Assembly (NCBI GenBank): GCA_947247005.1
Contig: OX365949.1
Location: forward strand, 816,001 to 880,000
Direction: 5' to 3'
From: Spisula solida
Lineage: Eukaryota; Mollusca; Bivalvia; Venerida; Mactridae
DNA length: 64,000 nucleotides
In this document: positions 16,428 to 63,867 of the stretch, one piece after another
How positions within the stretch are numbered: the stretch's first letter is position 1
How the letters are laid out: each line of letters starts with the position of its first letter
Position numbers and translations under genes: made by a program
The notes under the pieces: model-generated
Databases searched by the model: none
Told to the model about the DNA's origin: nothing
Seen by the model: only the letters and a program-made list of their open reading frames with translations

Positions 16428-17417
16428 ATGGTTTGGGGTGTGGGATTCAGTATGTCATGGAGCAGTAATGCTACATCTTCCAGTCAGTGAGTATTCTATA
16501 CAGATAAACACATCTTACTTCTCTACACTAGTACATGGCTTAAAGTTTGAAATTCAGAAAAATCCGAAATCTTCAAAAATCGACAATTTTATCATGATAG
16601 TAACAATAAAAAACAGGCTTTTTGGTACTCTTAAAAACCTGAAGTTCAGGCATGTGCCTAAAAGCTTTCACCCATTTAAATATACTTATATTATGTTCAT
16701 TGTTAAATCTGCTACATACATTCCTGATGACGATTACCACGACGAGAGGTGAAACCAGAGTTGCCCTTATAAGGTGAGGACCGTAAACAAGTTGTTAGAA
16801 TTTGTGGCGCAACACCTTTGCTAAAAAGCTATCTTTGTTGTACGTGTTATGTTGTTTGAATTTATCTAGCGATGCAGTATACCACAGGAATTTGAAATTC
16901 TATCCATAAAATTATATATACATATAGAGCGATTTTGATTAGATCGACTGCTATGATAGTTTATGGATGGAATTTCAAATTCCTGTGGGTATACAATATG
17001 TTCAGATCCATTTAGTATTTTGCAACTGTGGTTTTATAGCCTGGGAACTTGACTAACCACTGATGTATGAGGACGGTTTAGAACCAGGGACCGTACATAA
17101 GAACTAGTACATGTATATACGTTCCTGGTTTAGACCAAAGAAAGTCAGGCCAATTTTAATGTATAACTTTGTTTCCCTTTTCTAGAGCTCATAGCAGAAG
17201 CGCAACAATGGGACAACACGTGAACACATGTACGGCTGGTCATACTGGGTTTGGGAACCGAGGTTTATTTAACAAACATTACACAAACCATTGTCCAGGC
17301 TGTAGACGAGACAGGTCACACTCCACGTGGGGTAACAGTGCCAATGGTTCCGGTGCGCTCACATTCATATCATTATTCACAGGGACTACTCGTGCAAAGA
17401 AAAGTTTGTGGGGCTGA
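16428..17417 (+). CDS. WG-rich HCCC mini-protein, paralogue A (two exons)
   Basis: Exon 1 is 16428-16486, donor GTGAGT at 16487. Exon 2 is 17186-17417, acceptor tctag. The join is phase 2 (CA+A) and gives 96 residues. The N-terminus MVWGVGF...SW is Trp-rich. The core H31-x3-C35-x20-C56-PG-C59 looks like a one-site zinc-binding motif. It is followed by RRDRSH, a further WG (68-69), the hydrophobic ALTFISLF, and the C-terminal AKKSLWG. No signal peptide or long membrane segment is present, so a cytosolic or nuclear protein is expected. An in-frame ATG three bases upstream (16425) would add one Met. An acceptor-like ttgtag at 16381-16386 suggests a non-coding exon further upstream. The family is not one I recognise. 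The exon pairing is supported by the shared phase and architecture of paralogue B. Confidence 0.8.
16877..16994. mobile_element. Near-palindromic fold-back element inside paralogue A intron
   Basis: The left arm tataccacaggaatttgaaa (from 16878) pairs with a right arm ending tttcaaattcctgtgggtat at about 16992. Arms of about 35 bases flank a spacer of about 45 bases. It lies entirely within the 699-base intron 16487-17185 and has no coding capacity. Confidence 0.7.
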
Positions 17418-17760
17418 CGGGAGAAAGGTTCCGGTGTGCAATATCTCGTGCAATATGTTGTTATATATGTTTCTGCAACAGGCGAAGATAACAGCATTCG
17501 ATATGTCAAATGCTATTAATTAAACCAGTGTGTGTCATTTCTTACTACTGGTATTAGAATGTTTTATTTTATATGTATGATGTGTACATTAACTTGTAAT
17601 TTTAGAGTTATGTACCCTGTTGACAACGTAGATTTAGCCATCCAGACCTTTGTGCTGCCGAATCTGGTGTTATTTCAGAAACCCTTCCAAGATATATACA
17701 ACCGTTAAACACGCTAGTTTTAAACCATTTCGTCTCTATCATTACAATAAATTATTGTTG

Positions 17761-17766
17761 AATAAA
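17761..17766 (+). terminator. Candidate polyadenylation signal, paralogue A
   Basis: AATAAA 344 bases after the stop codon of paralogue A, with a second partial signal (caataaatt) about 15 bases earlier. Confidence 0.4.
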
Positions 17767-18535
17767 AATTGTACAAAATGCGGTTTAAACTTGTTCGTTA
17801 CCGATTTATGAAACCATGGTTAGATTGTCACATTATCGCCCGGTTGGTCATATTTGGGTTCCCCGGCTATTACCATGTTTCTGAATGTTGGTCCCTGCGA
17901 ACCTTTAAACATATACTACGCCCATCTAAGCAAGTTACACCAGAAAATTGTTGATTCTATTTTGTGACCGCATTGGCTAAAAATCCGTAATTAGAGCCAT
18001 TGTGATAAAATTGCAGCAGAATATATCTATCTACTTTGAATTATACTTGAAAATACTAACAAAATACTGTTTTTGTTAAAAAACTGGAGTTTTTTATATT
18101 TAATATTGACGTGTCACGTAACAATGCAATACAAAGAGATATGTACAGCTGTAATTTTTTCACAATGGTTATCAATGCGTATGTTTTAGTCAATAATATC
18201 TGAAAAAGGATTTTAAAACGTTGTGTTGCTTTTGCCTGGTATATACTAACAAACTAGTATATAATTATATAGTGTTTAGTGTTGGTATGATACAATGAGT
18301 AACAAACTATTTAAAAATAGGACTTTAACACGAGTTCACTAAGTATGCCATTGTGTCATTCAATTTGGTCATTTATGTGTTGCCAATGATGTACAAAACA
18401 TTTTAGCATACGAGGGTGATCAATATATTCGAAGACTTTCATTCTAACTTTTTAATTATTGATTCTAGAACAATGAAATAACCAGGGTATGTAGATCTAT
18501 CAATTACCGACGGTTTTAATTATTTAATTATATTG
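17767..18535. other. No gene recognised
   Basis: AT-rich intergenic sequence downstream of paralogue A; only short frames without motifs. Confidence 0.5.
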
Positions 18536-18577
18536 TGACGTCACAATGGTATTGATGACGTCACTTATCGTGACCAA
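18536..18577. promoter_or_regulatory. Twin perfect CRE sites plus CCAAT box
   Basis: Two exact TGACGTCA palindromes at 18536-18543 and 18556-18563, 20 bases centre to centre, about two helical turns. CCAAT follows at about 18573-18577, then a CG-rich stretch (cagcacgcgccgtcg). CREB/ATF factors bind TGACGTCA. The site may mark the promoter of a distant first exon of paralogue B, but no start site was assigned. Confidence 0.45.
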
Positions 18578-22553: not shown

Positions 22554-23480
22554 ATGGGCTGGGGAGAAACTTGGGGCGAGAAGAATAAATGGGGAAACAG
22601 TAGCTGGAAAAGAAAGTAAGTATTTGTGCAACAATTTGAATGTTTGTAATGGCTTTATGTTGAAAATATCACCTATTAATGTATTACTTCGATGTTATAT
22701 GTCCTACTCTCCTAAAACACCGATCGGTTATATAAAGTATCGCCCAGTAATATATGTACGTAGCGTTAATTGTAACGACGCAGTGGACATCAGTGCACTG
22801 AGAGTAGCATAGATATGTCGCAAATTATATACTTTACAACATAGAATAAAGCATATACCTTTGCTTTCGATTTTCGTCAACCGGTCGTATTAAAGCTTCT
22901 ACTTGTGAAATGCTAATGCTTAGGTTAGAATTTAAGTGCCCTTATGTTCGTATTTATAAAGTGGAACAACAATGGCACCATACATGGACCTCGTGTATTT
23001 ACGCTAATTACTCATATATTAACTTATTTGATCATTGTGGCATCACATGTTACTCATTTGTGGCAAGTTGTCTGTTCCGAGGACATGTATGTTTGTTTCT
23101 AGCTCTGCTTTAAAACATCTGAAGTCAGTGTACCGACAATAGCGCATACATAAGCGTAGGAATATTGAATATGTATATAAATACGCATTCAAGTATTCTG
23201 GAACATGTTCATGTTAAAACTTAATTCTTCTTCCCCTTTCAGCCATTCTAATGAAGATCCTCATGGTCAACATCTCAACATGTGCATGGCCGCTACACGG
23301 TTCCCTGGTAGTCCGTTTGATGCCCACTACAACATAAACTGTCCGGGATGTCGGGATGAACGTGCTGGGAAAGGCTGGAGCAATGGTGGTAAAGGCGCCA
23401 CCAACGCTGTTGTCATGGTTGCATCCTTGTTCGTAGGAACCAAACCAAAGAAACAAGCCAAGAAAAGTCTGTGGGGTTAA
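22554..23480 (+). CDS. WG-rich HCCC mini-protein, paralogue B (two exons)
   Basis: Exon 1 is 22554-22615, donor GTAAGT at 22616. Exon 2 is 23243-23480, acceptor ccctttcag. The phase-2 join (AA+C, Asn21) gives 99 residues. The N-terminus has four Trp, three as WG (MGWGETWGEK...KWG). The core is H31-x3-C35-x18-C54-PG-C57, with His and first Cys at the same residue numbers as paralogue A. RDER, a lone W66, the hydrophobic AVVMVASLF and a Lys-rich KPKKQ precede the C-terminal AKKSLWG. An acceptor-like atttaccag at 22515-22523 implies a non-coding exon upstream. A ribbon-like zinc site is inferred from the HCCC spacing; molecular function is unknown. Confidence 0.85.
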
Positions 23481-28505: not shown

Positions 28506-28512
28506 CTTAAAA

Positions 28513-28690: not shown

Positions 28691-30813
28691 AACAAGTGTA
28701 CCTTGGATTCATGTCTCACTTGCTGTTGTGCTGGTTAGAAAAGACAGTGTGAAGGGGTCACATATACGTTTATTGAGTACCTCATCACACCATTTCCAAT
28801 TATATTTGGCCTATTAAGAGACAATCGGTTAACCAGGACAGATCATTTATGCTGTTCACATGATTGGACATAACGGATCAATTGATTATATATACAGCTT
28901 ATATTTTTTTATTTCATATATACATTGGACTATGTGTTCATGAGTACCCACTTTTACATTTATAAATATTTATACATAGATATTGCATTCAAAGATCTAA
29001 TATCATACTATATAGATAAAATATTAGATCATAGGTTCGCATAAACTGTTAAAAGTTCGCCTTCAGTAGCGAAATGAAATGAAACTAGCATGTATCTAAG
29101 TTGATTATATTCACGGAAGATTTTAGAAATCGTTTATACATATGCTTCCATAAATAGCATCGCGTAATGCAACAACAATCTGAAAACAATTTCCACAAAA
29201 ACACTGTAGGAGGCATGATATGGATACTGTCAATGTACGCATATATTTTACTTCTAGCATTCTCCATATTTATATTTGGAAAATTGCCATAAAATTATCG
29301 TGACCCTTGGGCTATATGACCAATGCGAAGGTAATTTTGAAAAATATGATTTTAACATTTTAAGTTTTAGTATTTCTAAATATATAAACCGAAACTAATG
29401 AAATATGTACATTCACAAACAAAAGCCACGAAAACGATACTAGTCAGCATACCCCCCCCCCCCCCTACACCACCCATCTTTTTATGACAACCAGTGGACG
29501 AGGGTACAAGTTTCAGTACTGGTTTGCCTATAAGGCGGACGAATGGTTATTAACAGGCCACGATGGCCCTACATCGCGCAGCTGAACAAACCTTTTAAAG
29601 TTTAGCTCCTTTAACATCGCAACCTGTCCGTCACTGATTTTTGTATAATTAATATCGTTCATAATTTTCTTTTTCCAATTGTATATACTTATGTTATTAT
29701 AAGTACTTGATTTGTGCTTATGTTATTACAAGTACTTGATGTGTGTATTTAAACGCATTTTCTGTTTGGCGACGAACATGTTCACATGTTTAGGCAATAA
29801 AATTTCTTGAGCTACAATCAGTCTGTATAATTATCATCGAACAAATGTAAGTCTAATGTGAACGATCTTTTGGTAGAGTTCCAAATGACAGTATTCTCTG
29901 ACTTTATTTTACGGGGTTAACACATTTGCATATAAACACAATCTTCCATGCGGACCTCAACATATAATACAAACATTTTACAAACACAGTAAACTAAACA
30001 AATTGAACTTAAAAAATGAATGATTCCATCTATGTAAAAAGAAAGTATTTACAAACATTAATGGGTCCCAAGCCAATTTAATGAGTCGACTCGAGACTCG
30101 CACCAAAATGAAACACTGAGAAAGTGATCCATTAAACGACTTTGCTGAGGTATTAGATTTTCAGTTCACAACATAATGCGTCATTTTAACCACGTTGATG
30201 TACAATATTCCCTTACGACTTTTTTGTAGTAACCAAAATAAGTCAGGAAGGAGGGATTCCAAACCAAACCGCTTTGTCGTTTTCGAGTATTTTCAAATTT
30301 TCATATTTTAAATTTATATCTGGAAGCATTTACAAATATATTATGATTGAAGACAATAAAGCTATAAAATAAAGTATCATTACACAAAATATGATTAAAT
30401 GACAGAATTGTCCACATTATAAATAATCGCCTGTCATATTAATTACTAATGATGATAAATTTAATGACGAAATGTAAGCTATATGTCTAAAAAACACATT
30501 TGAATTCCTTTGTCATAACACATGGATAAAATGAACTTTTTAAAGTATTGGTAATAAATAGCACGCCGAAGCTAAACATGTAATACTATCGCAAACATCT
30601 GAAACATCTCTTCTTATAACACTAGCAATGTACAGTACGGAACAAAACAAGACCTTATATATATTTCTACTTACTATCGCAGTTCAGTATCAAATACATA
30701 CATAATACTAGTATATCACTACAAAGCAGATTGAACAGAAAGGGAATAATACAAAAGTAAATAGCGCAATTCAACACACTAGCGCAGCGCAGTAGAAAAC
30801 ACACAGAACATAT
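28691..30813. other. No gene recognised
   Basis: AT-rich. Holds a C-run of about 14 near 29452-29465 and a short direct repeat (gcttatgttatta, tacaagtacttgat) at about 29690-29745. No coding feature was supported. Confidence 0.45.
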
Positions 30814-31540
30814 AGTCCATGAGCCACCAATAGAAGACCCTCCCCCCCCCTAGGGAATTTTGGTCACTATATTTTTCTGAAAGCATATGGTCCCTGGAGT
30901 ATTTTCCTGAAGTCTGCACTTTGGCCATTGTGGCGTTAAGATTTTTTGGGGTAAAACGTCAAAAAATATAAACGAAAAGTACCAATTTTCGGAATCGGTT
31001 AACTACAATCCTATTTATTATGTTATTTTAAAATAAATCTCTGTAACAGGTAGATATTAACCTGTCCTATCTAGACTGAAAAAATCAGAGTGCTGCTATT
31101 GTGCAAAATGGCTTTTTTGGGGTAAAACGCTAAAAAATTATAAGAGAAAAGTGCGAATTTTTGGAGTCTGTGGACTGCATTGGCATTTATTTATTTATTT
31201 TTTAAAAAAATACTCTTAATTGAAAGATATTATAGTGCAGTTTCATACTGCAAAAAAATTAAAGCCATGTTATTACGCAAAGTGTGAAATTTTTGGGGTA
31301 AAACATCAAAAAATATAAACCGAAAAGTGGGAATATTAGGAATCTGTAGATTACAATAAAACCATTCCTATGAGAATTTTTTTGTAACTAAATAATATTA
31401 ATGTGATAAATTTGTAGTAACATGCAGTTTAAGATTTCAAATATATATTGCCAGATGAGATACTTTGGGGGAAAATTACAAAAATAATAAATGGAAAGTG
31501 TGATTTTTGGGAATTGGTGTCCTAGTTGTAACTTACGACC
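30814..31540 (+). repeat. Left inverted arm with internal subrepeats
   Basis: The motif tttttggggtaaaac(g/a)t followed by caaaaaatataaacgaaaagt recurs at about 30935, 31109 and 31293, with a weak fourth copy near 31464, so roughly 175-base subterminal repeats. Each is followed by an ...attttnggaatc(g/t)g phrase. Confidence 0.75.
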
Positions 31541-34394: not shown

Positions 34395-34870
34395 TTTTCC
34401 TGCTGAACGCCCCAATGTCTGAAGTGCAGACTTTGGGAAAAGTATTGGTAGGTCAAAGCCTTTCATAATTATCAAAAAAAAAAGATCAATGACACAGTAT
34501 TCTGCCATTAAAGTGTACCGATTCTCAAAATTTGCACTTTTTCATGTATTTTTTAATGTTTTACCCCAAAAATATCCCATTTGCATAATAACATGGGACT
34601 AAAATTTTGCAGACTTAAACTATGAGTTAATATCAACCCATGAAAGTGTTTAATTACAAAATAACTTACTAAATGTGATAGTAATTAACCAATTCCAGAA
34701 ATTCACACTTTCGTTCATATTTTTAACGTTTTACCCCAAAAAATCTTTACGCCCCAACGGCCAAAGTGCAGACTTTGGAAAAATACTATACTGGTCATAC
34801 GCTTTCAGAAAAATATAGTGTCCGAAATTCCCTAGGGGGGGAGGGTTTACCCCCACTGGCCCATGGACTA
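34395..34870 (-). repeat. Right inverted arm with duplicated terminus
   Basis: acgccccaa(n)g(t/g)c(t/c)(g/a)aagtgcagacttt occurs at about 34407 and again at about 34751, each followed by a similar ...ggtca..gc(c)tttca block. gttttaccccaaaaa occurs at about 34558 and 34728. The terminal module therefore seems to be present about twice on this side. The short hairpin ccaaagtgcagactttgg lies at about 34762-34779. Confidence 0.65.
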
Positions 34871-35005: not shown

Positions 35006-35838
35006 GGTACAGAGCAGAGCACAGCACAGCAGAGCACAGAGCATAGAACACAGAGCATAGAGCATAGAGCATAGAGCATAGAGCATAGAGCATAGAGCAT
35101 AGAGCATAGAGCATAGAGCATAGAGCATAGAGCATAGAGCATAGAGCACAGATCACAGATCACAGAGTAGAGCACAGAGAACAGAACACAGAGAACATGT
35201 CACAAAGCACAGAGCACAGAGTACATAGTACAGAGCACAGCACACAGAACACAGAACACAGAACACTCTAGCACAAAACACAGAGCAAAGAGCACAGAAC
35301 ACGGAACACAGAACACTCTAGCACAGAACAAAGAACACTCTAGTACAGAGCACAGAACACTCTAGTACAGAGCACAGAGCATAGAGCATAGAGCATAGAG
35401 CACAGACCACAGACCACAGACCACAGACCACAGACCACAGACCACAGACCACAGACCACAGACCACAGACCACAGACCACAGACCACAGAACACACTAGC
35501 ACAGAACACATGTCACATGTCACATAACACTCTAGCACAGAGCACAGAGCACAGAGCACAGAGCACAGAGCACAAAGCACAGAGCACAGAGCACAGAGCA
35601 CAGAGCACATAGCACATAGCACAGAGCACAGAGCACAGAGCACAGAGCACAGAGCACAGAGCACAGAGCACAGATCACATATCACAGAACACAGAGCACA
35701 GAGCACAGAGCACAGAGCACAGAGCACAGAGCATAGAGCACAGAACACAGAACACAGAGCACACTAGCACAGAACACAGAGCATAGAGAACAGAACACTC
35801 TAGCACAGAACACAGGGCACAGGGCACAAATCACAAAT

Positions 35839-35872
<34 letters not shown>

Positions 35873-35873
35873 A

Positions 35874-35932
<59 letters not shown>

Positions 35933-36198
35933 AGATCATAGATCACAGATCACAGATCACAGAACACAGAACACTCTAGCACAGAACACAGAGCACAGAA
36001 CACTCTAGCACAGATCACAGACCACAGATCACAGAGCGTAGAACACTATAGCACAGAGCACAGAGCACAGAACACTCTAGCACAGATCACAGAACACAGA
36101 TCATAGAGCACAGAACACTCTAGCCACAGATCACAGAACACAGAACACAGAGCACAGATCCCAGATCACAGAACACAGAGCACAGAGCACAGAGAGCA
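35006..36198 (+). repeat. Heptamer satellite (AGAGCAC/AGAGCAT family)
   Basis: Blocks of pure heptamers follow one another: agagcat (35041-35150), agaccac (35400-35490), agagcac (35530-35730) and gagcact (35840-35930). They are separated by aacactctagcacagaacac spacers that themselves recur (for example at about 35335, 35525, 35790, 35970, 36070). Three minus-strand frames (35362-35748 being the longest) are open only because of the repeat. Confidence 0.95.
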
Positions 36199-37288
36199 TT
36201 ACAGTGCAACACGACAAAGCAGTACATAGCTCATCACTGCATGGCTGTCTAGGCGGGAAAGTTCGGTTTATTCCACAAAGGCTGATTAATCAAATTTGCA
36301 CGATTTATCAGTGATATTTCAGTACAAAACTGACCAAATCTGTTTACTTTAGTAATTTGTGTAACCAATTTTGCAACAGTTGACCAAACCCAGTCATGTT
36401 TGTAAACATCACATTATCCTGTGCGCACTATATAGAGGGATAAGTATGAAAATTCGCATCTAACGAATACTACTGGTTTTACACTACATAATTATATTTG
36501 AAAACACAAATAATGTACCTAACTTCAATACAACGTGAATATAATACTGACATCCAATAGCAACTTATTATTTTTAAGATGTAAATGTTTTGGTTTATGT
36601 CCAGAGTATTTGTTTATGTACAATATTTATATACATTGTTTTAAATCTATCATTGTTTAAGAATAGATCCGAGCTTTTAGTCGCAAAAATTGTGATTTAA
36701 ATTTGGAAATTATAAAACTGTAAGTTGATATATTACTTGATCTAAAACCTTTGGGTTTTTTTAATTTTACGCTATCGATCATTTTCCGACGGCAATAAAA
36801 TTAGACACATCACCAACAATACAATAATCCTCGATCTTTATGCAAGAATATGTTGCAATGTCCTTGTGTCAAATTCATCAGTTTCTGCGAGAAAGTCGTT
36901 CCTTGCCGAAGATTATGCTTAGTGTTTATCTGATATACTAGTATTCCCCGCGTACGAAGCAAAACCCAAAAATTAGATTTTGGACAAGAAATAAACTGTT
37001 TAATTATGCTAACAGAAGATTGGAGTTTTAGGTTGATATGTTTGCACTATAACTCACTGTGATGCACTATCATGTCAAGTTTAAAACATTCGTGATCAAA
37101 ATTCGGTTATTTAACGTTTTCCATGTCGGGATCACGTGAATAGTGTTTCTGATGCCGACAGGAGGGTGAATGGATGGGGAATGAGTCACGCCGACTATCA
37201 TGTTTTGTAATCATATACCATTCTTACGATTATGTAAAATACAAATATACTGAAATCGAGCTAAGTAAAGTTTGTAACATCATTGATC
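36199..37288. other. No gene recognised; possible 5' region of paralogue C
   Basis: AT-rich. A TATA-like actatatagaggg lies near 36427. Nothing else could be supported. Confidence 0.35.
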
Positions 37289-38277
37289 GTACCGGTGACA
37301 TTACGGCGTACACTCGGTATCATATCGTACCGGTGACACTACGGCGTACACTCGGTATCATATCGTACCGGTGACATTACGGCGTACACTCGGTATCATA
37401 TCGTACCGTTGACATTACGGCATACACTCGGTATCATATTGTACCGGTGACATTACGGTGTACACTCGGTATCATATCGTACCGGTGACATTACGGCGTA
37501 CACTCGGTATCATATCATACCGATGACACTACGGCGCACACTGGGTATCATAAAGTACCGGTGACATTACGGCGTACACTCGGTATCATATTGTACCGGT
37601 GACATTACGGCGTACACTCGGTATTATATCGTACCGGTGACACTACGGCGCACACTCGATATCATATCGTACCGGTGACATTACGGCGTACACTCGGTAT
37701 TATATCGTACCGGTGACATTACGGCGTACACTCGGTATCATATCGTACCGGTGACATTACGGTGTACACTCGGTATCATATCGTACCGGTGACATTACGG
37801 CGTACACTCGGTATCATATCGTACCGGTGACATTACGGCGTACACTCGGTATCATATCGTACCGGTGACACTACGGCGCACACTCGGTATCATATCGTAC
37901 CGGTGACATTACGACGTACACTCGGTATCATATTGTACCGGTGACATTACGGCGTACACTCGGTATTATATCGTACCGGTGACACTACGGCGCACACTCG
38001 GTATCATATCGTACCGGTGACATTACGGCATACACTCGGTATCATATCGTACCGATGACATTACGGCGTACACTCGGTATCATATCGTACCGGTGACATT
38101 ACGGCGTACACTCGGTATCATATCGTACCGGTGACATTACGGTTTACACTCGGTATCATATCGTACCGGTGACACTACGGCGCACACTCGGTATCATATC
38201 GTACCGGTGACATTACGACGTACACTCGGTATCATATCGTACCGGTGACATTACGACGTACACTCGGTATCATATCG
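37289..38277 (+). repeat. 38-bp minisatellite, about 26 copies
   Basis: The unit is gtaccggtgacattacggcg then tacactcggtatcatatc, exactly 38 bases (starts at 37289, 37327, 37365...). Common variants are cacTac/cacAtt, gcgTac/gcgCac and ggcg/gacg. The array ends about 120 bases before the acceptor of paralogue C. 38 is not a multiple of three, so frames do not stay open for long. Confidence 0.95.
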
Positions 38278-38406
38278 GACAGTAGACTTGTTATATCTGC
38301 AACTGTTTTAAAACATGTTCCTACAAGAATGTTTAGCATGCATTAAGGTGCCGGGGACATCCAGTTTATACTAAGCATGTGTTTTATTTGTTTTCAGTAT
38401 TCATCA

Positions 38407-38630
38407 TGAATACTCCAGGATTTGGGTTTTCGAGCCGACCGAGAGAGGCACAGGGCACCCATTGTTCCAGCTGTTATGTTGGAAAGTCGGGGTTTGGAAG
38501 CACTGTCAAATATGGAAGTAAATGTTCTGGTTGTCTGCGTCATAGAGCTATGACGTCATCAGTTGGTCAAACCGGAAGGAGAAGATCGTCGGGTAATGGC
38601 GTCTTCATGATAATGAGGCTGTTTCGTTAA
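38407..38630 (+). CDS. HCCC mini-protein, divergent paralogue C
   Basis: A 74-residue frame starting 9 bases after an acceptor (tttgttttcag, ending 38397). The core H19-x3-C23-x16-C40-SG-C43 with GFG between the second and third ligands matches the family, and an extra Cys lies at 20. RHR follows. The protein lacks three family traits: no N-terminal WG repeats (MNTPGFGF instead), VG where others have WG after the core, and termination right after the hydrophobic VFMIMRLF, so no AKKSLWG. The phase-2 frame used by A and B does not lead into the family frame here, so a coding first exon like theirs is unlikely. Either a specialised or a decaying member; the frame is intact. Confidence 0.65.
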
Positions 38631-41407: not shown

Positions 41408-41430
41408 GAAGTAAGTAAGTAAGTAAGTAA

Positions 41431-44400
41431 CAAACTAACCAACCTACGACCAAACCAACCTACGACCAAACCAACCTACGACCAAACCAAACTACGACCA
41501 AACCAACCTTCGACCAAACCAACCAACGACCAAACCAACCTACGACCAAACCAAACTACGACCAAACCAACCAACGACCAAACCAACCAACGACCAAACC
41601 AACCTTCGACCAAACCAACCAACGACCAAACCAACCAACGACCAACCAAACTACGACCAAACCAACCTACGACCAACCAAACTACGACCAAATCAAACTA
41701 CGACCAAACCAACCTACGACCAACCAAACTACGACCAAATCAAACTACGACCAAACCAACCTACGACCAACCAAACTACGACCAAATCAAACTACGACCA
41801 AACCAACCTACGACCAACCAAACTACGACCAAATCAAACTACGACCAAACCAACCAACGACCAAACCAACCAACGACCAACCAAACTACGACCAAACCAA
41901 CCAACGACCAAACGAACCAACGACCAACCAAACTACGACCAAATCAAACTACGACCAAACCAACCTACGACCAAACCAACCTACGACCAAATCAAACTAC
42001 GACCAAACCAACCAACGACCAACCAAACTACGACCAAATCAAACTACGACCAAACCAACCTACGACCAAACCAACCTACGACCAAACCAACCAACGACCA
42101 ACCAAACTACGACCAAACCAACCAACGACCAACCAAACTACGACCAAATCAAACTACGACCAAACCAACCAACGACCAAACCAACCAACGACCAACCAAA
42201 CTACGACCAAATCAAACTACGACCAAACCAACCTACGACCAAACCAACCAACGACCAACCAAACTACGACCAAATCAAACTACGACCAAACCAACCTACG
42301 ACCAAACCAACCTACGACCAAATCAAACTACGACCAAACCAACCTACGACCAACCAAACTACGACCAAATCAAACTACGACCAAACCAACCAACGACCAA
42401 ACCAACCAACGACCAACCAAACTACGACCAAACCAACCAACGACCAAACCAACCAACAACCAACCAAACTACGACCAAATCAAACTACGACCAAACCAAC
42501 CAACGACCAAACCAGCCAACGGCCAACCAAACAACGACCAAACCAACCAACGACCAAACCAACCAACGACCAACCAAACTACGACCAAATCAAACTACGC
42601 CCAAACCAACCTACGACCAAACCAACCTACGACCAAATCAAACTACGACCAAACCAACCTACGACCAAACCAACCTACGACCAAATCAAACTACGACCAA
42701 ACCAACATACGACCAACCAAACTACGACCAAATCAAACTACGACCAAACCAACCAACGACCAAACCAACCAACGACCAACCAAACTACGACCAAACCAAC
42801 CAACGACCAAACCAACCAACGACCAACCAAACTACGACCAAATCAAACTACGACCAAACCAACCAACGACCAAACCAACCAACGACCAACCAAACTACGA
42901 CCAAATCAAACTACGACCAAACCAACCTACGACCAAACCAACCTACGACCAAATCAAACTACGACCAAACCAACCTACGACCAAACCAACCTACAACCAA
43001 ATCAAACTACGACCAAACCAACCTACGACCAACCAAACTACGACCAAATCAAACTACGACCAAACCAACCAACGACCAAACCAACCAACGACCAACCAAA
43101 CTACGACCAAACCAACCAACGACCAAACCAACCAACGACCAACCAAACTACGACCAAATCAAACTACGACCAAACCAACCTACGACCAAACCAACCTACG
43201 ACCAAATCAAACTACGACCAAACCAACCAACGACCAACCAAACTACGACCAAATCAAACTACGACCAAACCAACCTACGACCAAACCAACCAACGACCAA
43301 CCAAACTACGACCAAACCAACCAACGACCAACCAAACTACGACCAAATCAAACTACGACCAAACCAACCAACGACCAAACCAACCAACGACCAACCAAAC
43401 TACGACCAAACCAACCTACGACCAAACCAACCAACGACCAAACCAACCAACGACCAACCAAACTACGACCAAACCAACCTACGACCAAACCAACCAACGA
43501 CCAAACCAACCAACCAAACTACGACCAACCAAACTACGACCAAATCAAACTACGACCAAACCAACCTACGACCAAACCAACCTACGACCAAACCAACCTA
43601 CGACCAAACCAACCTACGACCAAACCAACCAACGACCAAATCAAACTACGACCAAACCAACCAACGACCAAACCAACCTACGACCAAATCAAACTACGAC
43701 CAAACCAACCTACGACCAAACCAAACTACGACCAACCAAACTACGACCAAATCAAACTACGACCAAACCAACCTACGACCAAACCAACCTACGACCAAAC
43801 CAACCTACGACCAAACCAACCTACGACCAAACCAACCAACGACCAAATCAAACTACGACCAAACCAACCAACGACCAACCAAACTACGACCAAATCAAAC
43901 TACGACCAAACCAACCTACGACCAAACCAACCTACCACCAACCAACCTACGACCAAATCAAACTACGACCAAACCAACCTACGACCAAACCAAACTACGA
44001 CCAAATCAAACTACGACCAAACCAACCTACGACCAAACCAACCTACGACCAAATCAAACTACGACCAAACCAACCTACGACCAAACCAACCTACGACCAA
44101 CCAAACTACGACCAAATCAAACTACGACCAAACCAACCTACGACCAAACCAACCTACGACCAAATCAAAGTACGACCAAACCAACCAACGACCAACCAAA
44201 CTACGACCAAACCAACCTACGACCAACCAAACTACGACCAAACCAAACTACGACCAAACCAAACTAGGACCAAACCAACCAACGACCAACCAAACTACGA
44301 CCAAACCAACCTACGACCAAACCAAACTACGACCAAACCAAACTACGACAAAACCAACCAACGACCAACCAAACTACGACCAAACCAACCTACGACCAAC

Positions 44401-44785
44401 CACACTACGACCAAACCAACCTACGACCAAATCAAACTACGACCAAACCAACCTACGACCAACCAACCTACGACCAAACCAAACTACGACCAAACCAACC
44501 TACGACCAAATCAAACTACGACCAAACCAACCAACGACCAAACCAACCAACGACCAACCAAACTACGACCAAATCAAACTACGACCAAACCAACCTACGA
44601 CCAAACCAACCAACGACCAACCAAACTACGACCAAACCAACCAACGACCAACCAAACTACGACCAAATCAAACTACGACCAAACCAACCTACGACCAAAC
44701 CAACCTACGACCAAATCAAACTACGACCAAACCAAACTACGACCAAACCAACCTACGACCAAACCAAACTACGACCAACCAACAT
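41431..44785 (+). repeat. 15/16-bp satellite, about 3.35 kb
   Basis: The array is built from three interleaved unit types: cgaccaaaccaaccta/a (16), cgaccaaccaaacta (15) and cgaccaaatcaaacta (16). These combine into larger recurring strings, for example a 15-mer, then the AATC 16-mer, then two or more AACC 16-mers. An (AAGT)n run of about five units at 41409-41430 precedes it. There is almost no sequence other than C, A, G and T of these units until ccaacatattgtac at 44776. Confidence 0.95.
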
Positions 44786-49620: not shown

Positions 49621-49956
49621 ATGAGCTGGGGCAGTTCTTGGGGAAATAGTGGTTGGTCGAGCAACAGTTCTGGTGGAGGAGGGGGTTCCGGCAGCAGTTG
49701 GGGATCCAGTACATGGGGCAACAACGGAAACAACAAGGACCCAAATGGCACACACAACCCATCATGTATTGCCGGAAGTGGTGGATGGGGTAGTGGAGGA
49801 CTGATGAAAGGTTACTATGACGAGAGTTGTTCAGGATGTAGACACGACAGGTCGCACACAGCCTGGGGTACCACTCCATCTGGAGGGAATCCAGTAGCGA
49901 AAGTGACCGCTTTGTTTGGTATTGGTTATTTAGCCAAGAAAAGTTTATGGGACTGA
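49621..49956 (+). CDS. WG-rich HCCC mini-protein, paralogue D (single coding exon)
   Basis: A 111-residue frame starting 14 bases after an acceptor (ctactttcag). It has the longest N-terminal region of the family: about 35 residues of Ser/Gly with WG or GW at 3-4, 7-8, 11-12, 27-28 and 32-33. The core is H45-x3-C49-x20-C70-SG-C73, with GWG between the ligands and RHDRSH after it, nearly identical to paralogue A. A further WG at 82-83, then AKVTALF and a C-terminal AKKSLWD, where Asp replaces the usual Gly. No signal peptide. Unlike A and B there is no intron between the WG region and the core. Function unknown; zinc binding is inferred from the Cys/His spacing. Confidence 0.85.
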   Translation: MSWGSSWGNSGWSSNSSGGGGGSGSSWGSSTWGNNGNNKDPNGTHNPSCIAGSGGWGSGGLMKGYYDESCSGCRHDRSHTAWGTTPSGGNPVAKVTALFGIGYLAKKSLWD

Positions 49957-49970
49957 CACGAGACATTAAA

Positions 49971-50633: not shown

Positions 50634-50690
50634 AAATGATTAATTGCAATTATAGTTTTGTATGTTATTATTGAAACATTTAACTGCATT

Positions 50691-53600
50691 GAGCAACATA
50701 AAGAGGTCTAAGGTTATACCTCGACTGATCACGTACAACATATAGAGGTCTAAGGTTATACTTCGACTGATCACATACAACATATAGAGGTCTAAGGTTA
50801 TACCTCGACTGATCACGTACAACATATAGAGGTGTAAGGTTATACTTCGACTGATCACATACAACATATAGAGGTCTAAGGTTATACTTCGACTGATCAC
50901 ATACAACATATAGAGGTCTAAGGTTATACCTCGACTGATCACGTACAACATATAGAGGTCTAAGGTTATACCTCGACTGATCACATACAACATATAGAGG
51001 TGTATGGTTATACCTCGACTGATCACGTACAACATATAGAGATGTAAGGTTGTACCTCGACTGATCACATACAACATATAGAGATGTAAGGTTGTACCTC
51101 GACTGATCACATACAACATATAGAGATGTAAGGTTATACCTCGACTGATCACGTACAACATATAGAGGTGTAAGGTTATACCTCGACTGATCACGTACAA
51201 CATATAGAGATGTAAGGTTATACCTCGACTGATCACGTACAACATATAGAGATGTAAGGTTATACCTCCGCTGATCACGTACAACATATAGAGATGTAAG
51301 GTTGTACCTCGACTGATCACGTACAACATATAGAGATGTAAGGTTATACCTCCGCTGATCATGTACAACATATAGAGATGTAAGGTTGTACCTCGACTGA
51401 TCACGTACAACATATAGAGATGTAAGGTTATACCTCGACTGATCACGTACAACATATAGAGGTGTAAGGTTATACCTCGACTGATCACATACAACATATA
51501 GAGGTGTAAGGTTATATCTCGACTGATCACGTACAACATATAGAGGTGTAATGTTATACCTCGGCAGATCACGTACAACATATAGAGGTCTAAGGTTATA
51601 CTTCGACTGATCACATACAACATATAGAGGTGTAAGGTTATACCTCGACTGATCACGTACAACATATAGAGATGTAAGGTTATACCTCCGCTGATCATGT
51701 ACAACATATAGAGATGTAAGGTTGTACCTCGACTGATCACGTACAACATATAGAGGTGTAAGGTTGTACCTCGGCTGATCACGTACAACATATCGAGGTG
51801 TAATGTTGTACCTCGACTGATCACATACAACATATAGAGGTGTAAAGTTGTACCTCGACTGATCACATACAACATATAGAGGTGTAAGGTTGTACCTCGA
51901 CTGATCACATACAACATATACAGGTGTAAGGTTGTACCTCGACTGATCACGTACAACATATAGAGGTGTAAGGTTATACCTCGACTGATCACATACAATA
52001 TATCGAGATGTAAGGTTATACCTCGACTGATCACGTACAACATATAGAGATGTAAGGTTGTACCTCGACTGATCACGTACAACATATAGAGATGTAAGGT
52101 TGTACCTCCACTGATCACGTACAACATATAGAGGTGTAAGGTTGTACCTCGACTGATCACGTACAACATATAGAGGTGTAAGGTTGTACCTCGACTGATC
52201 ACATACAACATATAGAGGTGTAAGGTTGTACCTCGACTGATCACGTACAACATATAGAGATGTAAGGTTCACGTACAACATATAGAGATGTAAGGTTCAC
52301 GTACAACATATAGAGGTGTAAGGTTATACCTCGGCTGATCACATACAACATATAGAGATGTAAGGTTATACCTCGGCTGATCACATACAACATATAGAGA
52401 TGTAAGGTTATACCTCGGCTGATCACATACAACATATAGAGATGTAAGGTTATACCTCGGCTGATCACATACAACATATAGAGGTGTAAGGTTATACCTC
52501 GACTGATCACGTACAACATATAGAGATGTAAGGTTATACCTCGACTGATCACATACAACATATAGAGGTGTATGGTTGTACCTCGACTGATCACATACAA
52601 CATATAGAGATGTAAGGTTGTACCTCGACTGATCACGTACAACATATAGAGGTCTAAGGTTATACCACGACTGATCACGTACAACATATAGAGATGTAAA
52701 GTTATACCTCGGCTGATCACATACAACATATAGAGATGTAAGGTTATACCTCGACTGATCACGTACAACATATAGAGATGTAAGGTTATACCTCGACTGA
52801 TCACGTACAACATATAGAGATGTAAGGTTATACCTCGACTGATCACGTACAACATATAGAGATGTAAGGTTATACCTCGACTGATCACGTACAACATATA
52901 GAGGTGTAAGGTTATACCTCGACTGATCACGTACAACATATAGAGGTGTAAGGTTGTACCTCGACTGATCACGTACAACATATAGAGATGTAAGGTTATA
53001 CCTCGACTGATCACATACAACATATAGAGATGTAAGGTTATACCTCGACTGATCACGTACAACATATAGAGATGTAAGGTTATACCTCGACTGATCACGT
53101 ACAACATATAGAGATGTAAGGTTATACCTCGACTGATCACGTACAACATATAGAGGTGTAAGGTTGTACCTCGGCTGATCACATACAACATATAGAGGTG
53201 TAAAGTTGTACCTCGACTGATCACGTACAACATATAGAGGTGTAAGGTTGTACCTCGGCTGATCACATACAACATATAGAGATGTAAGGTTATACCTCGG
53301 CTGATCACGTACAACATATAGAGATGTAAGGTTATACCTCGGCTGATCACATACAACATATAGAGGTGTAAGGTTATACCTCGACTGATCACGTACAACA
53401 TATAGAGGTGTAAGGTTGTACCTCGACTGATCACATACAACATATAGAGGTCTAAGGTTGTACCTCGGCTGATCACGTACAACATATAGAGGTCTAAGGT
53501 TGTACCTCGACTGATCACATACAACATATAGAGGTGTAAGGTTGTACCTCGACTGATCACATACAACATATAGAGGTCTAAGGTTGTACCTCGGCTGATC

Positions 53601-53805
53601 ACGTACAACATATAGAGGTCTAAGGTTGTACCTCGACTGATCACGTACAACATATAGAGGTCTAAGGTTGTACCTCGGCTGATCACGTACAACATATAGA
53701 GGTCTAAGGTTGTACCTCGGCTGATCACGTACAACATATAGAGATGTAAGGTTATACCTCGACTGATCACGTACAACATATAGAGGTGTAAGGTTGTATC
53801 TCGCT
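50691..53805. repeat. 42-bp minisatellite, about 74 copies
   Basis: The unit is gaggtgtaaggttatacctc then gactgatcacgtacaacatata. Main variants are GAGGTG/GAGGTC/GAGATG, TTATACC/TTGTACC, CTCGAC/CTCGGC and CACGTAC/CACATAC. Two adjacent units at about 52255-52310 have a 14-base deletion, which shifts frame. Because 42 is divisible by three, long minus-strand frames of 533-558 codons result (14-residue repeats such as MLYVISRGTTLHLY). They have no non-repeat domains and are not called as genes. Confidence 0.95.
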
Positions 53806-54080
53806 TGATCCTTGAACTTCCATGAAGATCATAACACTTGTTTAAGTTCGTACAGTGTCGGCCGAAATCCTTGGGAAGTATCGGTTCACTATTGACAACA
53901 ACACTTTGTGTGTGCAATATATGCAGATTTAATCATTTGATCACATTATCATAAACTTGTAATACAATATGTTCCATTAGTTTTATAGCTTGTTTATAAC
54001 TGGTAGTGAATAGTAAATGTGAACATGATGACCTTGTAGTTTTCCTGTATTATTTGAATTTCAAATTATTTACCATTAGC
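53806..54080. other. No gene recognised
   Basis: Short unique sequence following the 42-bp array; nothing was seen. Confidence 0.4.
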
Positions 54081-58330: not shown

Positions 58331-58604
58331 CGCTCTGAAGAGGTTGTACTGTACATGAAGATCTATACAATGATGTATTTCAAATATTCTGTAAGTGTAC
58401 ACAGACACAGATGGCTACGAAATATGAACAACAGTACTGCTTTCACAATAACCTTCACTTTTATTTATTGTAAAAAGGGAAACTACTCGTGAGAACTCAA
58501 CTTGAAAATAGTATGGATACCTTCCCCTATACTCTTCGTGATGCGATTATTTTAACCAAGCTGGTAGTACCGCAGGAGTTGGAAATTCTATCCGCAAGTT
58601 AACA

Positions 58605-58740
58605 AGAGGGCCAGTATGGCAGTGTATGGCTCACCTGGGCACATTGATCTAGTGGAACAATATTTAAACTGGACCTTGATTCCGATTGCCATGGTAACCA
58701 GAGTTCTGCATAGATTTCAATTATTTAGTTATTAATAGAA
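58605..58740 (+). repeat. Interspersed repeat fragment (AACAAGAGGGCCAGTATGGC)
   Basis: aacaagagggccagtatggc then agtgtatggctcacctgg. Phrases of this type are, to my recollection, common interspersed repeats in bivalve genomes; this was not checked. It is used here only as weak support for the organism call. Confidence 0.35.
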
Positions 58741-59000
58741 TGTACCATTCAGGACTTGTAATAAATTTCAGCCTGTACTTTCTGATAAAAAGGTTTCATT
58801 ATACATTTGTGCCTAACTCTCTGCTAGTTGGATTTTGTCGTGCAGTTGGAAATTGAATTTCGAACTACGATCTTCTAATTTTTGATCACTTCTCGGATCT
58901 TATTTTTCAATTGAACACATGCATATACATGTAATCATTATTTCTGAATTAAACTTGAAAGGCGAAGAGGATATGAACTGGTTTAAAGAAAAAGAAAAAC

Positions 59001-59282
59001 AGTCAATGCCTTTTCGGATACATCGCTGGCTTAGAATGAGAAGGTCGTAAGTATAAAATCTATATTTTGAGAAAACAGGAAAAAAACTGTCTGAAAACTA
59101 CTCTTTACGTATGGAAAAACAAAATTTTAAAATATCAGTTTGGTCAGCATGACCAGTTCCGATTTTCATGAGAATAGGTTCATAAGAAGCGCCTTGAGAT
59201 GCAGATTTCAAATATATATGTTCTTATAAGTAGCACTTACGACCATTCTAAACCAACGATGTATCCGAAAAAGCACCGACCC
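59001..59282. mobile_element. Fold-back element with 280-bp span
   Basis: The left arm cttttcggatacatcgctgg then cttagaatg..aaggtcgtaagt (59010-59053) pairs with the right arm acttacgaccattctaaacc then aacgatgtatccgaaaaagc (59236-59275). The spacer is about 180 bases of AT-rich non-coding sequence. Confidence 0.65.
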
Positions 59283-61033
59283 TTGTATACACAGAACGTC
59301 GCAGCTATTATCGGCTCACTTGTGATTCATGTTGTCGCAACGCCGTGTGAATACTGTGTCTAGGATCAACTGAGCCGAATGGTCACATGATCCACAACAT
59401 TCGATTTAGAATAGAGCGCGAGGCATGCTCTCATCCAATCAAATTTACTCATGAGTTATATAATTAATTCAAAATATATAATGAATTAAAAATATTTAGA
59501 TTGTTACCCCCATTAACAAAGAAATAACTACATAACGACCTCTGACGTATGCAATCATTCCGCCCTCATGTGTGCCAGTTAAAAAACCAGTGCAGATTAA
59601 TGAAATCAAAAGATCACGTTGCTTTGTTCGCATTTTTCATATTTGGGATTATCAGATTAAAACATACAATTATTTGTTTTCCTCGAAGGAATACTTCTTT
59701 ATCCGCATACCCCTTTAAGCTGATTATCACCACATAGCTTGACATGTCCATTTTAAGATAGGCTGGCCTTGGCAAATTTTATTTGCACTGATGAAACACC
59801 GTAATGCACCTGAGAAAAATAACTCTCATATACACTATCATCGTTACACCACCCCAGTTATTTTATGCTGGTAGTACACTAATGCCAATATACCAAGGAC
59901 ATTGGACTTAACTTGGCTGAACTACTGCGCAATCCTTTTGTTATTGTGCATATAGGCTAATCGCCAGCATTGTGGCTTATAAGCAGAAATAATATAATAT
60001 TAAAGAATATAATATAATATTGCTACTGCTGAATTCGATCATTTGTGGTGCACATAGCCGGTAATAGTAGCATCATTGTTCACGACTCTAATTTGTCGCG
60101 AACAGCGATGTATCGAAAAAAAAGTTCTCATGTTCGGAGCATTAATACGCTAGACCTCTAAGGCTGGGTTAAACTAAATAAAAATAAAATGGAGTTATTG
60201 TATATTCAATGTATACATGCATTTCTTATGATGAGTTGTTCGTACGTGTTTGGAATTAAATGACTGACAACTTTCTACCAATTCCCTCGTGTATCGGTTC
60301 TATACACGGGTCACGTTAAAGATTCAAGGACTCTATTTGGAAAAAAGGTAGGGTAGAACACCCTCAAACGTTGCATCACACAAAAAACTTCCAGTGCCAT
60401 CCCACGAAGTCGGAGGTCATTGGCCAATTAGGCAGGGATAAAAACGAAATGCCACGCACGTCGACTGTCTTAATCGAACGCAAAAACACTAGTTCCTTCA
60501 GCAGCTTTAAACATATCCTTTAAAATCAGTTTACATTAACAAATCTGTAAAACAAAGGTTGTATCAGTGAAAGTAAAGAAAAAGTACATGTACCAACAAA
60601 AAAAAAGAATTAATCTCATAACATATATTATAATCATCGTTAGTTTGGCAGTTGTAATTTCTGATTGTATTTGGTGATGCATAAACCTGTTTTTTTAAGA
60701 TTTATAGTACGGATAATTTGATACGAACCTCAACCTTCTCTTAACATAACTTAAAAGCTGATATATTGTTGTTACGTAGTCCTTATGATTTGGTAAAGAC
60801 AGTAACGCTCGTGTTCGTATAGTAGCTTTTATTCATTTGTTACACAGTTCATAAACATAGTATAGTACTTCTCAGGTTCACAGCATAAGTCAACTTTTCA
60901 TACTCATAAACATCCTGTCCAGGCTTATGGCCCAAGCTACTCGCTTGTTGACGGCCCGCACCAACTGGTCTCTCTCGACTCTACTTCTCAACTCTCTAAC
61001 TTAACTCCGACTCTGACTGACTAACTCCGACTC
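59283..61033. other. No coding gene; candidate promoter of paralogue E
   Basis: At 60418-60450 an inverted CCAAT pair (cattggccaatt) lies 12 or so bases before gggataaaaacg, a TATA-like box. A CG-containing stretch (cgcacgtcgactg) follows where a start site would fall. It is on the same strand as and 3.1 kb upstream of paralogue E. The link to that gene is by position only. Confidence 0.35.
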
Positions 61034-61404
61034 TGACTGACTGACTGACTGACTGACTGACTGACTGACTGACTGACTGACTGACTGACTGACTGACTGA
61101 CTGACTGACTGACTGACTGACTGACTGACTGACTGACTGACTGACTGACTGACTGACTGACTGACTGACTGACTGACTGACTGACTGACTGACTGACTGA
61201 CTGACTGACTGACTGACTGACTGACTGACTGACTGACTGACTGACTGACTGACTGACTGACTGACTGACTGACTGACTGACTGACTGACTGACTGACTGA
61301 CTGACTGACTGACTGACTGACTGACTGACTGACTGACTGACTGACTGACTGACTGACTGACTGACTGACTGACTGACTGACTGACTGACTGACTGACTGA
61401 CTGA
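61034..61404 (+). repeat. (TGAC)n microsatellite, about 93 units
   Basis: Essentially perfect tetranucleotide for 370 bases, bounded by ctaactccgactc on the left and tgaactcccc on the right. The minus-strand SQSV repeat frame is a by-product. Confidence 0.97.
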
Positions 61405-63561
61405 ACTCCCCACTAACATGGTATTAACCAACCAGACATATATTAAATTTACACTTCCTTACACTGACAGGTTTAAGCTCAAGGCTGTGTGGCTTTAGTA
61501 CAAATCTATATTTATGTACGGTCGATATGAAAGTCCATTGCAATTAATATTATATAATTAGCTTTCCCATGAATCATTACGCTACATTGTCTATAATTAT
61601 AGTCCCGGTTGCATGTTTTCATCATGAAGAGGGAAGTATCACGAAGACGCTCAATATCTACTACCAACATAAATCTAAAGGATCGATCTTACACGATTTG
61701 CTCGCAAATATTGATGTATTCAACGCAAGAACCTTGTTATATATTTATACATTAATGTAAGGATCAGGACAAATTATCCTTGCTATACTAGTAATATGAC
61801 CTCGTCTATAATTTTGCGACCATGCGGACATTTGTGATTTTGTTTTGTAAAGGTCCAAAATTTAGCCAAAAACGGTACACGGTATTGAACGGTTCACTAT
61901 TTTGACCATTTCTGTGAAGTTTTATATGGAAGTCTTTTTTGCTGACTCCGAAAATTAATACAACTCGGAAACTGTGGTTATAAGCCAATTGAACTAAAAT
62001 GAATTAAACGTGTGCTTAAATTTTAACCTGAAGTCATGAATTAATGCACTTAATCCCGGCTTATCTTACGGTCACGAGCGGGTTATTAGTTGATGGTATT
62101 ATATAAAGAATATTAGGATATCGTTAAGTTTGTCCAAAACATACTTAAAAATGTTCGACATTTGATATAATGAGCACACTTGCATTCTGTTGGCTGTGGA
62201 CTGAGGTAGGATTGTTTCTGATGATTTTTTTCCTTAAATGTGTTTTGTTTCATTGTGCTGAATTTAATTTGTGATCATGTTGCTGCTTAATTATGCGTTA
62301 TCTATTAATAATACATACATAAAATAAATATATATATATTTATATCATATTTTATGTATCAATTTGATAATAACGAGTTTACATGAGTTGATGTTCGCTG
62401 ACGAACGCTTACAAACGTCGTGTGTTCGTTGATATTTTAACATGCAAACTGTTACATTACAATGGAACAAACGAAACACTGATTAGTTCTCATGATAGAC
62501 CACTTGCTTGAAGTATCATTTATACGAGGGGTGATCCAGAAATAAGTTAGGCGTTTGTGAAATAAACGTTAATGTACGTTCTACGTCATTTGTCAACGTT
62601 CGTAAACGCTGAATTAAGTTGTACTTAGTTTGCCTAAGTTTGACTCAGATGGCAATCGTCTGTCGAGACGCTGGTGGTAAGTTGTTTTACAACGGAGGCC
62701 AACGGAGAACAATGAGGTATTCGATGAGCGCGATGTTAACACAAGGGGTAACGCAGGCAACCTTTCCATAGCATAGCAGGACAACGGATCTACGCATTGA
62801 ACTCAATGGTATCGTAGGAGTTTGGTGTAGGCAAACTTTCCACAACGTACCCGTAACTAACGTAGATTATGTTGCCGATCGCTGAGCATACGCTTCATCT
62901 GCATTTGCAACTCTGACACATGCTGTCAAACTCAAACGTCTAAACGTAGTCAAACACACGGATATGTTTGTAAACGTTGTAAACGTTTAAGTGCGCTGGG
63001 TATATACGTAAAGTATTATTATTACATAAATACCGTGGTCTTTCATGTGCTCGTTGACCCCTTTCTTAAACTCGTCACGAAAACGAACTATTAAGCTCGC
63101 GAATGGCTCCATTCATAACTTGTGTTTTCTGGACTCCTTTAAGAAATGCTAATCTCCAAAGACAACTCATGACGGATCCTATATCCGAACGTAATCTCGT
63201 CGACGTTTTGGGACCAATTATTAGACCTTTGGAATGCTGACCAACGATGTGTTCATGGGAACATCGTGAAAGCATGAACTTATGAAAGATGAAATGATGA
63301 ATGTTATAGTTCATAACAGTTGTCATAACGTAGGTTATCAATCGAATATTGTGTACATTTTGTATAAACATTTTAACCGGCACTTACTGCACATTATCCA
63401 ACCCATTCTCTTGAAACATTAGACACACAACTATCGACAGTTACTGTAAGGCGGGGCGGAGTGTCAAATGTCTCATACACTGCATAATCATGTCATTTTC
63501 AGATGTGGTCAATTCCAATCATATAATTACAACCGTATGATCCGGGACTCAACGCTTCAGC
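61405..63561. other. No gene recognised; possible mariner-type end
   Basis: tacgaggggtgatccagaaataa at 62522-62544 resembles the 5' end of a mariner-type element, but no transposase frame follows. The 102-codon minus-strand frame at 63075-63383 has no recognisable motif. The stretch 62400-63000 is unusually rich in aacg/aaacgt phrases. Confidence 0.3.
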
Positions 63562-63867
63562 ATGACTTGGGGAAACTCGTGGAATGAAGGCACTATGTGG
63601 GGCAGTGGTTGGGGCTCAAAGAATACTGAAGATAACACCAGTAGGTCACGTGGTGTTGACACATCCGGGGTCCATCACGCCAGATGCATGGTGGATAAAT
63701 GCCAGTGGGGACACAGACACATGATGTTGGACACCTCGTGTTCTGGATGTAGACGCAAGTCATCGGCATCGTCCATCTGGGGCAGTGGCAAGATGGGACA
63801 AGGTGCTATAGGTGTTATATCCTTGTTTTCCAAGCCAACTGTTGCCAAGAAAAGTCTTTGGGGCTGA
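63562..63867 (+). CDS. WG-rich HCCC mini-protein, paralogue E (single coding exon)
   Basis: A 101-residue frame. The N-terminus MTWGNSW...TMWGSGWGSK carries WG at 3-4, 13-14 and 17-18. The core is H38-x3-C42-x17-C60-SG-C63 with QWG between ligands and an additional Cys at 47. RRK follows, then a WG (73-74), hydrophobic AIGVISLF and C-terminal AKKSLWG. An acceptor-like cattttcag ends at 63502. Between it and the start lies a seven-codon upstream ORF; a second AG (cgcttcag, 63560) directly precedes the ATG and could be the true acceptor. No signal peptide. It is the fifth plus-strand member; the window ends 130 bases later, so the cluster may continue. Confidence 0.85.
   Translation: MTWGNSWNEGTMWGSGWGSKNTEDNTSRSRGVDTSGVHHARCMVDKCQWGHRHMMLDTSCSGCRRKSSASSIWGSGKMGQGAIGVISLFSKPTVAKKSLWG

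Follow-up and report, generated by a model that had tools for sequence, protein, structure and literature searches.

The 64,000-nucleotide stretch of the bivalve Spisula solida genome analyzed here (GenBank assembly GCA_947247005.1, contig OX365949.1, positions 816,001 to 880,000 of the forward strand; hereafter, the window) carries five small genes, members 1 to 5, whose products share a core of one histidine and three cysteines (HCCC). An original prediction, made from the DNA alone, had placed five same-strand genes near 16.4, 22.6, 38.4, 49.6, and 63.6 kb and grouped them into an undescribed family defined by this core, a Trp-Gly (WG) N-terminus, and a C-terminal AKKSLW[G/D]. We built a profile hidden Markov model from 19 homologs, none of them from the window, and used it to search the window as 1965 six-frame pieces. 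Five frames matched, with E values of 5e-44, 1.9e-27, 2.3e-24, 2.9e-18, and 4.2e-16 (56 to 146 bits). The next match (E = 2.6) was the frame containing exon 1 of member 2, and the top profile score in 20 dinucleotide-preserving shuffles of the window was 11 bits. The predicted positions and shared orientation were thus borne out, as all five genes lie on the + strand and a profile from outside the window recovers these five alone above threshold. A regular-expression scan of all six frames located the H-x3-C ... C-x-G-C pattern at 17217, 23271, 38460, 49753, and 63673, and AKKSLW at 17394, 23457, 49933, and 63844, every hit being on the + strand; the same scan found no AKKSLW at the 38.4-kb gene (member 3). 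We consider it very likely that the family is real and distinct from known families.

Gene models and introns

Members 1 and 2 are each interrupted by an intron that separates the WG exon from the core exon and has the same phase in both (Table 1); their spliced products comprise 97 and 99 amino acids (aa), respectively. Member 1 may start at an ATG at 16425 or at 16428, and its best match in Mactra antiquata favors 16428. Acceptor-like sites also lie 14 to 59 bp upstream of the ATG in members 1, 2, 4, and 5, as well as ahead of member 3. The best pyrimidine count at these sites is at least 10 of 15 in all five genes, compared with 18.5% of 5000 random positions, this threshold having been chosen only after the five sites were known. 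Such upstream sites suggest an intron in the 5' untranslated region. Each of the five stops is followed at 9 to 281 bp by AATAAA or ATTAAA, which is weak evidence because these hexamers are very common, with 102 and 49 occurrences on the window's + strand.

The intron of member 1 contains a short element (16882-16988) with 29-bp inverted ends (97%), likely a miniature inverted-repeat transposable element. An end similar to that of this element occurs at 58570, with 3 mismatches in 19 positions.

Table 1. Coding features of the five genes, with positions counted from the first base of the window
Feature	Position	Strand	Details
Member 1, coding exon 1 (WG-containing N-terminus)	16425..16486	+	BLAST 55% to Mactra P0011, from residue 2
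Member 1, intron	16487..17185	+	699 bp, phase 2, GT-AG
Member 1, coding exon 2 (HCCC core, hydrophobic segment, AKKSLWG, stop)	17186..17417	+	
Member 2, coding exon 1 (WG-rich N-terminus)	22554..22615	+	Full-length alignment to Mactra P0001, 84%
Member 2, intron	22616..23242	+	627 bp, phase 2, GT-AG
Member 2, coding exon 2 (HCCC core, tail, AKKSLWG, stop)	23243..23480	+	
Acceptor-like site	38380..38397	+	8 bp upstream of member 3 ATG
Member 3	38406..38630	+	74 aa; HCCC core; lacks Trp and AKKSLW; C-terminus FMIMRLFR
Member 4	49621..49956	+	111 aa; five WG/GW before core, HCCC core, AKKSLWD
Member 5	63562..63867	+	101 aa; WG N-terminus, HCCC core, AKKSLWG

Conservation of the proteins and divergence of the DNA

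The members had been described as very different in nucleotide sequence, with motifs that persist through selection on protein, and our comparisons agree on both counts. Among the five loci with flanks of up to 2 kb (for member 5, the 133 bp downstream that fall within the window), the only DNA match at E <= 1e-3 is a 47-bp piece, 79% identical, shared by members 1 and 4 and lying within the core exon. Codon-position identity across the core and tail ranges from 0.23 to 0.43 at third positions and from 0.42 to 0.66 at first and second positions, with third positions lowest in all 10 member pairs, in a codon alignment that was guided by the proteins and is therefore biased in favor of positions 1 and 2. 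Eight of the 10 residue columns that are identical in all five members use more than one codon, and the two CxxC cysteines are encoded by TGT in every member. Third positions that are least conserved, together with synonymous codons that vary in invariant columns, argue for selection on the protein.

The original prediction had itself raised the alternative of a transposon-encoded open reading frame; we sought one and saw no sign of it within the window, in either the flanks or the Pfam results. Transposon-encoded frames or their remnants would suit several copies lying amid satellites and repeats, and the order H-x3-ligand ... C-x2-C resembles the integrase zinc site. However, the five loci in the window have no flanking DNA in common, no Pfam transposon domain is present, two members have introns of the same phase in the same place, and the proteins are 55 to 84% identical to the products of consecutively numbered Mactra genes. 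On the evidence of the window, we consider a transposon origin extremely improbable.

Relatives in other bivalves

Three protein searches, which are blind to relatives sharing no 5-residue word with the queries, yielded 22 homologs, and these form a set of 27 sequences together with the five window members. The 10 homologs that carry a species name all come from Neoheterodontei bivalves, according to the taxonomy of the three species: five from Mactra antiquata (ACF0H5_006880, ACF0H5_006881, ACF0H5_006882, ACF0H5_006883, and ACF0H5_008653), three from Mya arenaria (MAR_027431, MAR_027432, and an "uncharacterized transmembrane protein DDB_G0289901-like"), and two from Dreissena polymorpha (DPMN_174587 and DPMN_174360). 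Nine of these 10 are annotated as "hypothetical protein," without an assigned function.

We compared the five members with 21 homologs. The best Mactra matches of members 1 to 4 are ACF0H5_006883 (P0011; 55% identity), ACF0H5_006882 (P0001; 84%), ACF0H5_006881 (P0017; 73%), and ACF0H5_006880 (P0003; 69%), respectively, with P0005 (72%) the best match of member 4 overall, while no homolog comes close to member 5 (at most 42%). Each of the four Mactra genes is on a 48.1-Mb contig, presumably one and the same, and their numbering runs opposite to the order of members 1 to 4. The array looks collinear with Mactra because four consecutive gene numbers match members 4, 3, 2, and 1, the order being read from gene numbers and not from gene positions.

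A tree of the 27 core-and-tail stretches (72 columns; 8 of 24 inner branches starred, 11 open) pairs member 2 with ACF0H5_006882 (support 100/98), joins member 3 with ACF0H5_006881 and P0021 (100/99), and places two long forms, P0020 and P0022, together (100/99). Member 4 falls into a group of 14 with ACF0H5_006880, ACF0H5_008653, and the short Mya and Dreissena forms (99/96). The pairs of member 1 with ACF0H5_006883 and of member 4 with ACF0H5_006880 are not resolved in the tree and are based on best match and gene order; member 5 stands next to P0012 on a long branch with weak support (86/65). Judged by these sequences, the gene family belongs to neoheterodont bivalves, forms an array in the window, and has so far been found only in bivalves.

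As had been claimed, no named domain fits these proteins: none of the 27 sequences scores above the curated Pfam cut-off, and none of the 24 sequences in the NCBIfam scan (the set without P0020, P0021, and P0022) matches at E 0.01. The sole Pfam matches up to E 10, UvrD_C_2 (E = 0.14, member 1) and UPF0547 (E = 0.21, P0021), are far below the cut-off and were dismissed, and PDB sequences gave nothing better than E 0.58. A viral origin was rejected, as none of 52 pattern matches in viral contigs was confirmed as a relative. Two unnamed PHROGs families, each touched by 1 of 24 members (E = 0.0078 and 0.0091), were taken as chance. Neither AKKSLW nor AKKSLWG was found in the literature text searched, which excludes subscription papers and supplements, and a literature search combining clam and orphan genes gave no match. 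The Mya annotation DDB_G0289901-like led to two papers, on ants and salmon lice. Bivalve genomes hold many unnamed genes, and lineage-restricted orphan families are common. The present family is apparently undescribed, and it would be new only in the sense that no sequence-related known family was found.

The HCCC core and the N-terminal region

The core H-x3-C-x(16-21)-C-x2-C is present in 27 of 27 sequences, the five window members included, a conservation that is partly built in, as the profiles used to find the homologs contained the core. A Gly two positions before the core His occurs in 25 of 27, giving the consensus G-x-H-x3-C-x(16-21)-C-x2-C, followed by basic residues. Within the window, the predicted form H-x3-C-x(16-20)-C-x-G-C is shared by all five members, as is the "LF" after the hydrophobic stretch. 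Other parts of the predicted motif order apply to some members only: the WG N-terminus to four (member 3 has no Trp anywhere), the central [FW]G to four (member 2 has PG), and the second WG to three (member 2 has WS and member 3 none). The HCCC residues of all 27 sequences are compatible with the proposal that the core would fit one zinc ion.

The N-terminal regions are composed of 21% Ser, 20% Gly, 10% Asn, and 8% Trp, and each of the 27 sequences has more Lys and Arg than Asp and Glu. No 19-residue Kyte-Doolittle window exceeds 1.23 in any of them, and no N-terminus is strongly hydrophobic. Because hydropathy is low throughout, this crude test indicates no obvious membrane span or signal peptide, and the proteins are probably intracellular. 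A secreted or released immune effector from a cationic, Trp-rich peptide family would account for the small size, the several tandem copies, the divergence of the members, and the excess of basic over acidic residues in every sequence. We nevertheless regard such an effector as quite improbable, given that the hydropathy scan reveals no signal-peptide-like N-terminus, that no Pfam match exceeds the cut-off, that the core consists of three Cys and a conserved His instead of paired disulfides, and that the tail motif is conserved.

A repeated motif in the C-terminal tail

Twenty-two of the 27 sequences carry A[KR]KSLW at the C-terminus, with a single residue after the Trp (two in P0018); the residue following the Trp is Asp in 16 and Gly in 6. 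The last Cys lies 36 to 39 residues from the C-terminal end in 20 of these 22 and 42 residues from it in member 2 and its Mactra counterpart. The original prediction overreached in calling AKKSLW[G/D] invariant, as only four of the five window members have it: member 3 ends in MRLFR, like the MKLFR of its best Mactra match, P0017 (FMIMKLFR), and both share the end [RK][LI]F[RK] with P0021. Member 3 as a decayed copy was rejected, since its best Mactra match has the same short end and P0021 is short too.

The tail is extended in P0020 from Mya (282 aa) and P0022 from Dreissena (266 aa), which are 48% identical. They contain four and five copies of S-[LI]-[WF] after the core, respectively, counts that were reached in 0 of 20,000 composition shuffles of each long-form tail. 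In both proteins, the last copy is one residue from the C-terminus (ANKSIFT and ATKSLFK), and the residue before the Ser is Lys or Arg in six of the nine copies. By the same loose pattern, window members 1, 2, 4, and 5 have two, two, one, and three matches, respectively, and member 3 has none; in members 1, 2, and 5, an extra SLF or SIW lies further upstream in the tail. The SLF in the hydrophobic segment is a possible instance of the tail motif. Because the motif recurs in the long paralogs, the tail A-x-[KR]-S-L-W reads best as a repeated linear docking-type motif and not as a mere conserved end. This repetition in the long Mya and Dreissena forms is our chief new result.

One candidate docking system is that of the cyclins, whose hydrophobic patch is bound by RXL motifs, as described in excerpts of PMC7895821 and PMC12990038. 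K-S-L-W and [RK]-S-[LI]-F would then be RxL-type motifs, and the long paralogs would be multi-site cyclin clients or inhibitors. The pattern [KR]-x-[LI]-[FWLMP] follows the core in 24 of 27 members, but the Ser, which occupies the "x" of RxL, is fixed in all A[KR]KSLW ends and in the nine long-form copies (in the latter by the search pattern), and the basic residue is missing from three of those nine. Sites of the S/T-P type number only 0 to 2 per protein, and a Trp at the hydrophobic position is not among the RXL descriptions in the same excerpts. Cyclin docking therefore appears distinctly unlikely to us.

Candidate partners of the WG arm

The WG segment invites comparison with proteins that bind Trp-containing ligands. 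As mini GW-proteins, the family members would place their WG arm in the tandem Trp pockets of Argonaute and act as recruiters or competitors at complexes for small-RNA silencing, while the basic zinc core would lie close to RNA. Their N-terminal regions are rich in Ser, Gly, Asn, and Trp. The Argonaute-binding sites of TNRC6 contain at least two Trp that are ten or more residues apart, according to PMC9262622. Of the 27 members, 19 have such a pair ahead of the core and 24 have one when the whole chain is counted. However, eight members, 1 and 3 included, have no such pair before the core, Trp is missing altogether from this region in member 3, P0014, and P0017, and 40 of the 72 gaps between neighboring Trp span only 4 to 5 residues. 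WG composition is by itself a weak criterion, and an Argonaute partner leaves the SLW tail unexplained; on balance, we find this alternative unlikely.

An endocytic or trafficking adaptor would instead use SWG repeats to bind EH domains (class II) and touch the membrane with its hydrophobic segment and adjoining KK. An excerpt of PMC8927860 lists FW, WW, and SWG as class II EH-domain ligands, and SWG, the only one of these counted here, occurs before the core in 18 of 27 members with up to three copies per protein. Short hydrophobic stretches are indeed present in the tails, but they are mostly not amphipathic, and SWG is missing from nine members, including 1, 2, 3, and 5 of the window, where member 4 alone has it before the core. 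We view a trafficking role of this kind as very doubtful.

A proposed one-zinc adaptor with two arms

We tentatively propose that these proteins are multivalent intracellular adaptors in which a one-zinc core carries a WG arm and an SL[WF] arm, a reading suggested by their motif content that we hold to be quite possible, if short of probable. The four HCCC ligands would hold a single zinc ion and thereby form a small folded hub, while the N-terminal Trp arm and the SL[WF] arm would act as short linear docking motifs. Each protein could then serve as a multivalent adaptor or competitor that joins two partners, and paralogs would differ in the arms they keep, member 3 being without the WG arm and without the SLW tail. 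Any particular partner is an unlikely guess: for the WG arm, an EH-domain protein or a protein with an Argonaute-type Trp pocket; for the SL[WF] arm, a receptor with a hydrophobic patch, for example a cyclin. None of the Argonaute, EH, and cyclin motif patterns is found in all 27 members.

Several observations weigh against this adaptor. The A[KR]KSLW[GD] tail is missing from member 3, P0017, and P0021 and, as such, from P0020 and P0022; it is not a defining trait of the whole family. Neither arm is universal: member 3, P0017, and P0021 (3 of 27) do without the tail motif, and in 4 of 27 sequences the region ahead of the core holds at most one Trp. The motif is also loose, given the absence of a basic residue before the Ser in three of the nine long-form copies. 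Moreover, AlphaFold2 produced no confident fold, either for the whole of member 4 (predicted local distance difference test score, pLDDT, 46.8; predicted template modeling score, pTM, 0.12) or for its last 75 residues (pLDDT 51.8, pTM 0.18). The one helix in each model, predicted with low confidence, falls within the hydrophobic segment (member 4 residues 91-99 and 91-105).

A more specific version of the adaptor, which we think rather unlikely, is a new bivalve one-zinc mini-scaffold whose WG arm would plug into a silencing or trafficking Trp-pocket protein and whose tail would be a new motif, A-x-[KR]-S-[LI]-[WF], the family having been diversified by duplication and motif multiplication. 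The family as a whole has a testable design, with a probable zinc core in all members seen and a motif that holds a nearly constant position and is multiplied in relatives. It might thus lead to a docking motif not known before, together with its receptor, and it has no tie to a pathway so far.

Other features of the window

Five full-length 7SL (signal recognition particle) RNA genes (223 to 245 bits) lie 2.06 to 2.07 kb apart on the - strand at 799-9358. The - strand also has open frames at 50640-53917 (537, 533, and 558 aa), which fall on a 42-bp satellite (50694-53810) and stay open because its period is divisible by three. Further satellites have periods of 7 bp (35015-36194), 38 bp (37286-38277), and 16/47/63 bp (41437-44783), the last in a region with a GC skew of -0.51 over bases 40001-44000, and a CTGA repeat occupies 61013-61404. 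An inverted pair of approximately 370 bp, 76% alike, is found at 30813-31185 and 34503-34870, with further degenerate repeats between the two copies.

Comparison with known systems

The zinc site of retroviral and Ty3 integrases (HHCC) has the order His-x3-ligand ... Cys-x2-Cys, and the clam core has a shorter spacer (16-21) than integrases do. The second ligand sets the two apart, being Cys in 27 of 27 clam sequences, which have no Pfam match; they do not fit an integrase H2C2 zinc domain, since the H-x3-H half site is absent and no profile matched. The Argonaute-binding regions of GW182/TNRC6 are, like the clam proteins, rich in Ser, Gly, and Asn with repeated WG. Unlike in those regions, the clam WG segment is very short, its Trp are often 4 to 5 residues apart, and it is missing in some paralogs. 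To our knowledge, GW182/TNRC6 has nothing that corresponds to the HCCC core or the SLW tail. The SWG of class II EH ligands is common in the clam family, yet missing in 9 of its 27 members. Finally, cyclin RxL motifs and the clam tail both combine [KR]-x-L with an aromatic residue, whereas the clam tail has a fixed Ser and usually a Trp.

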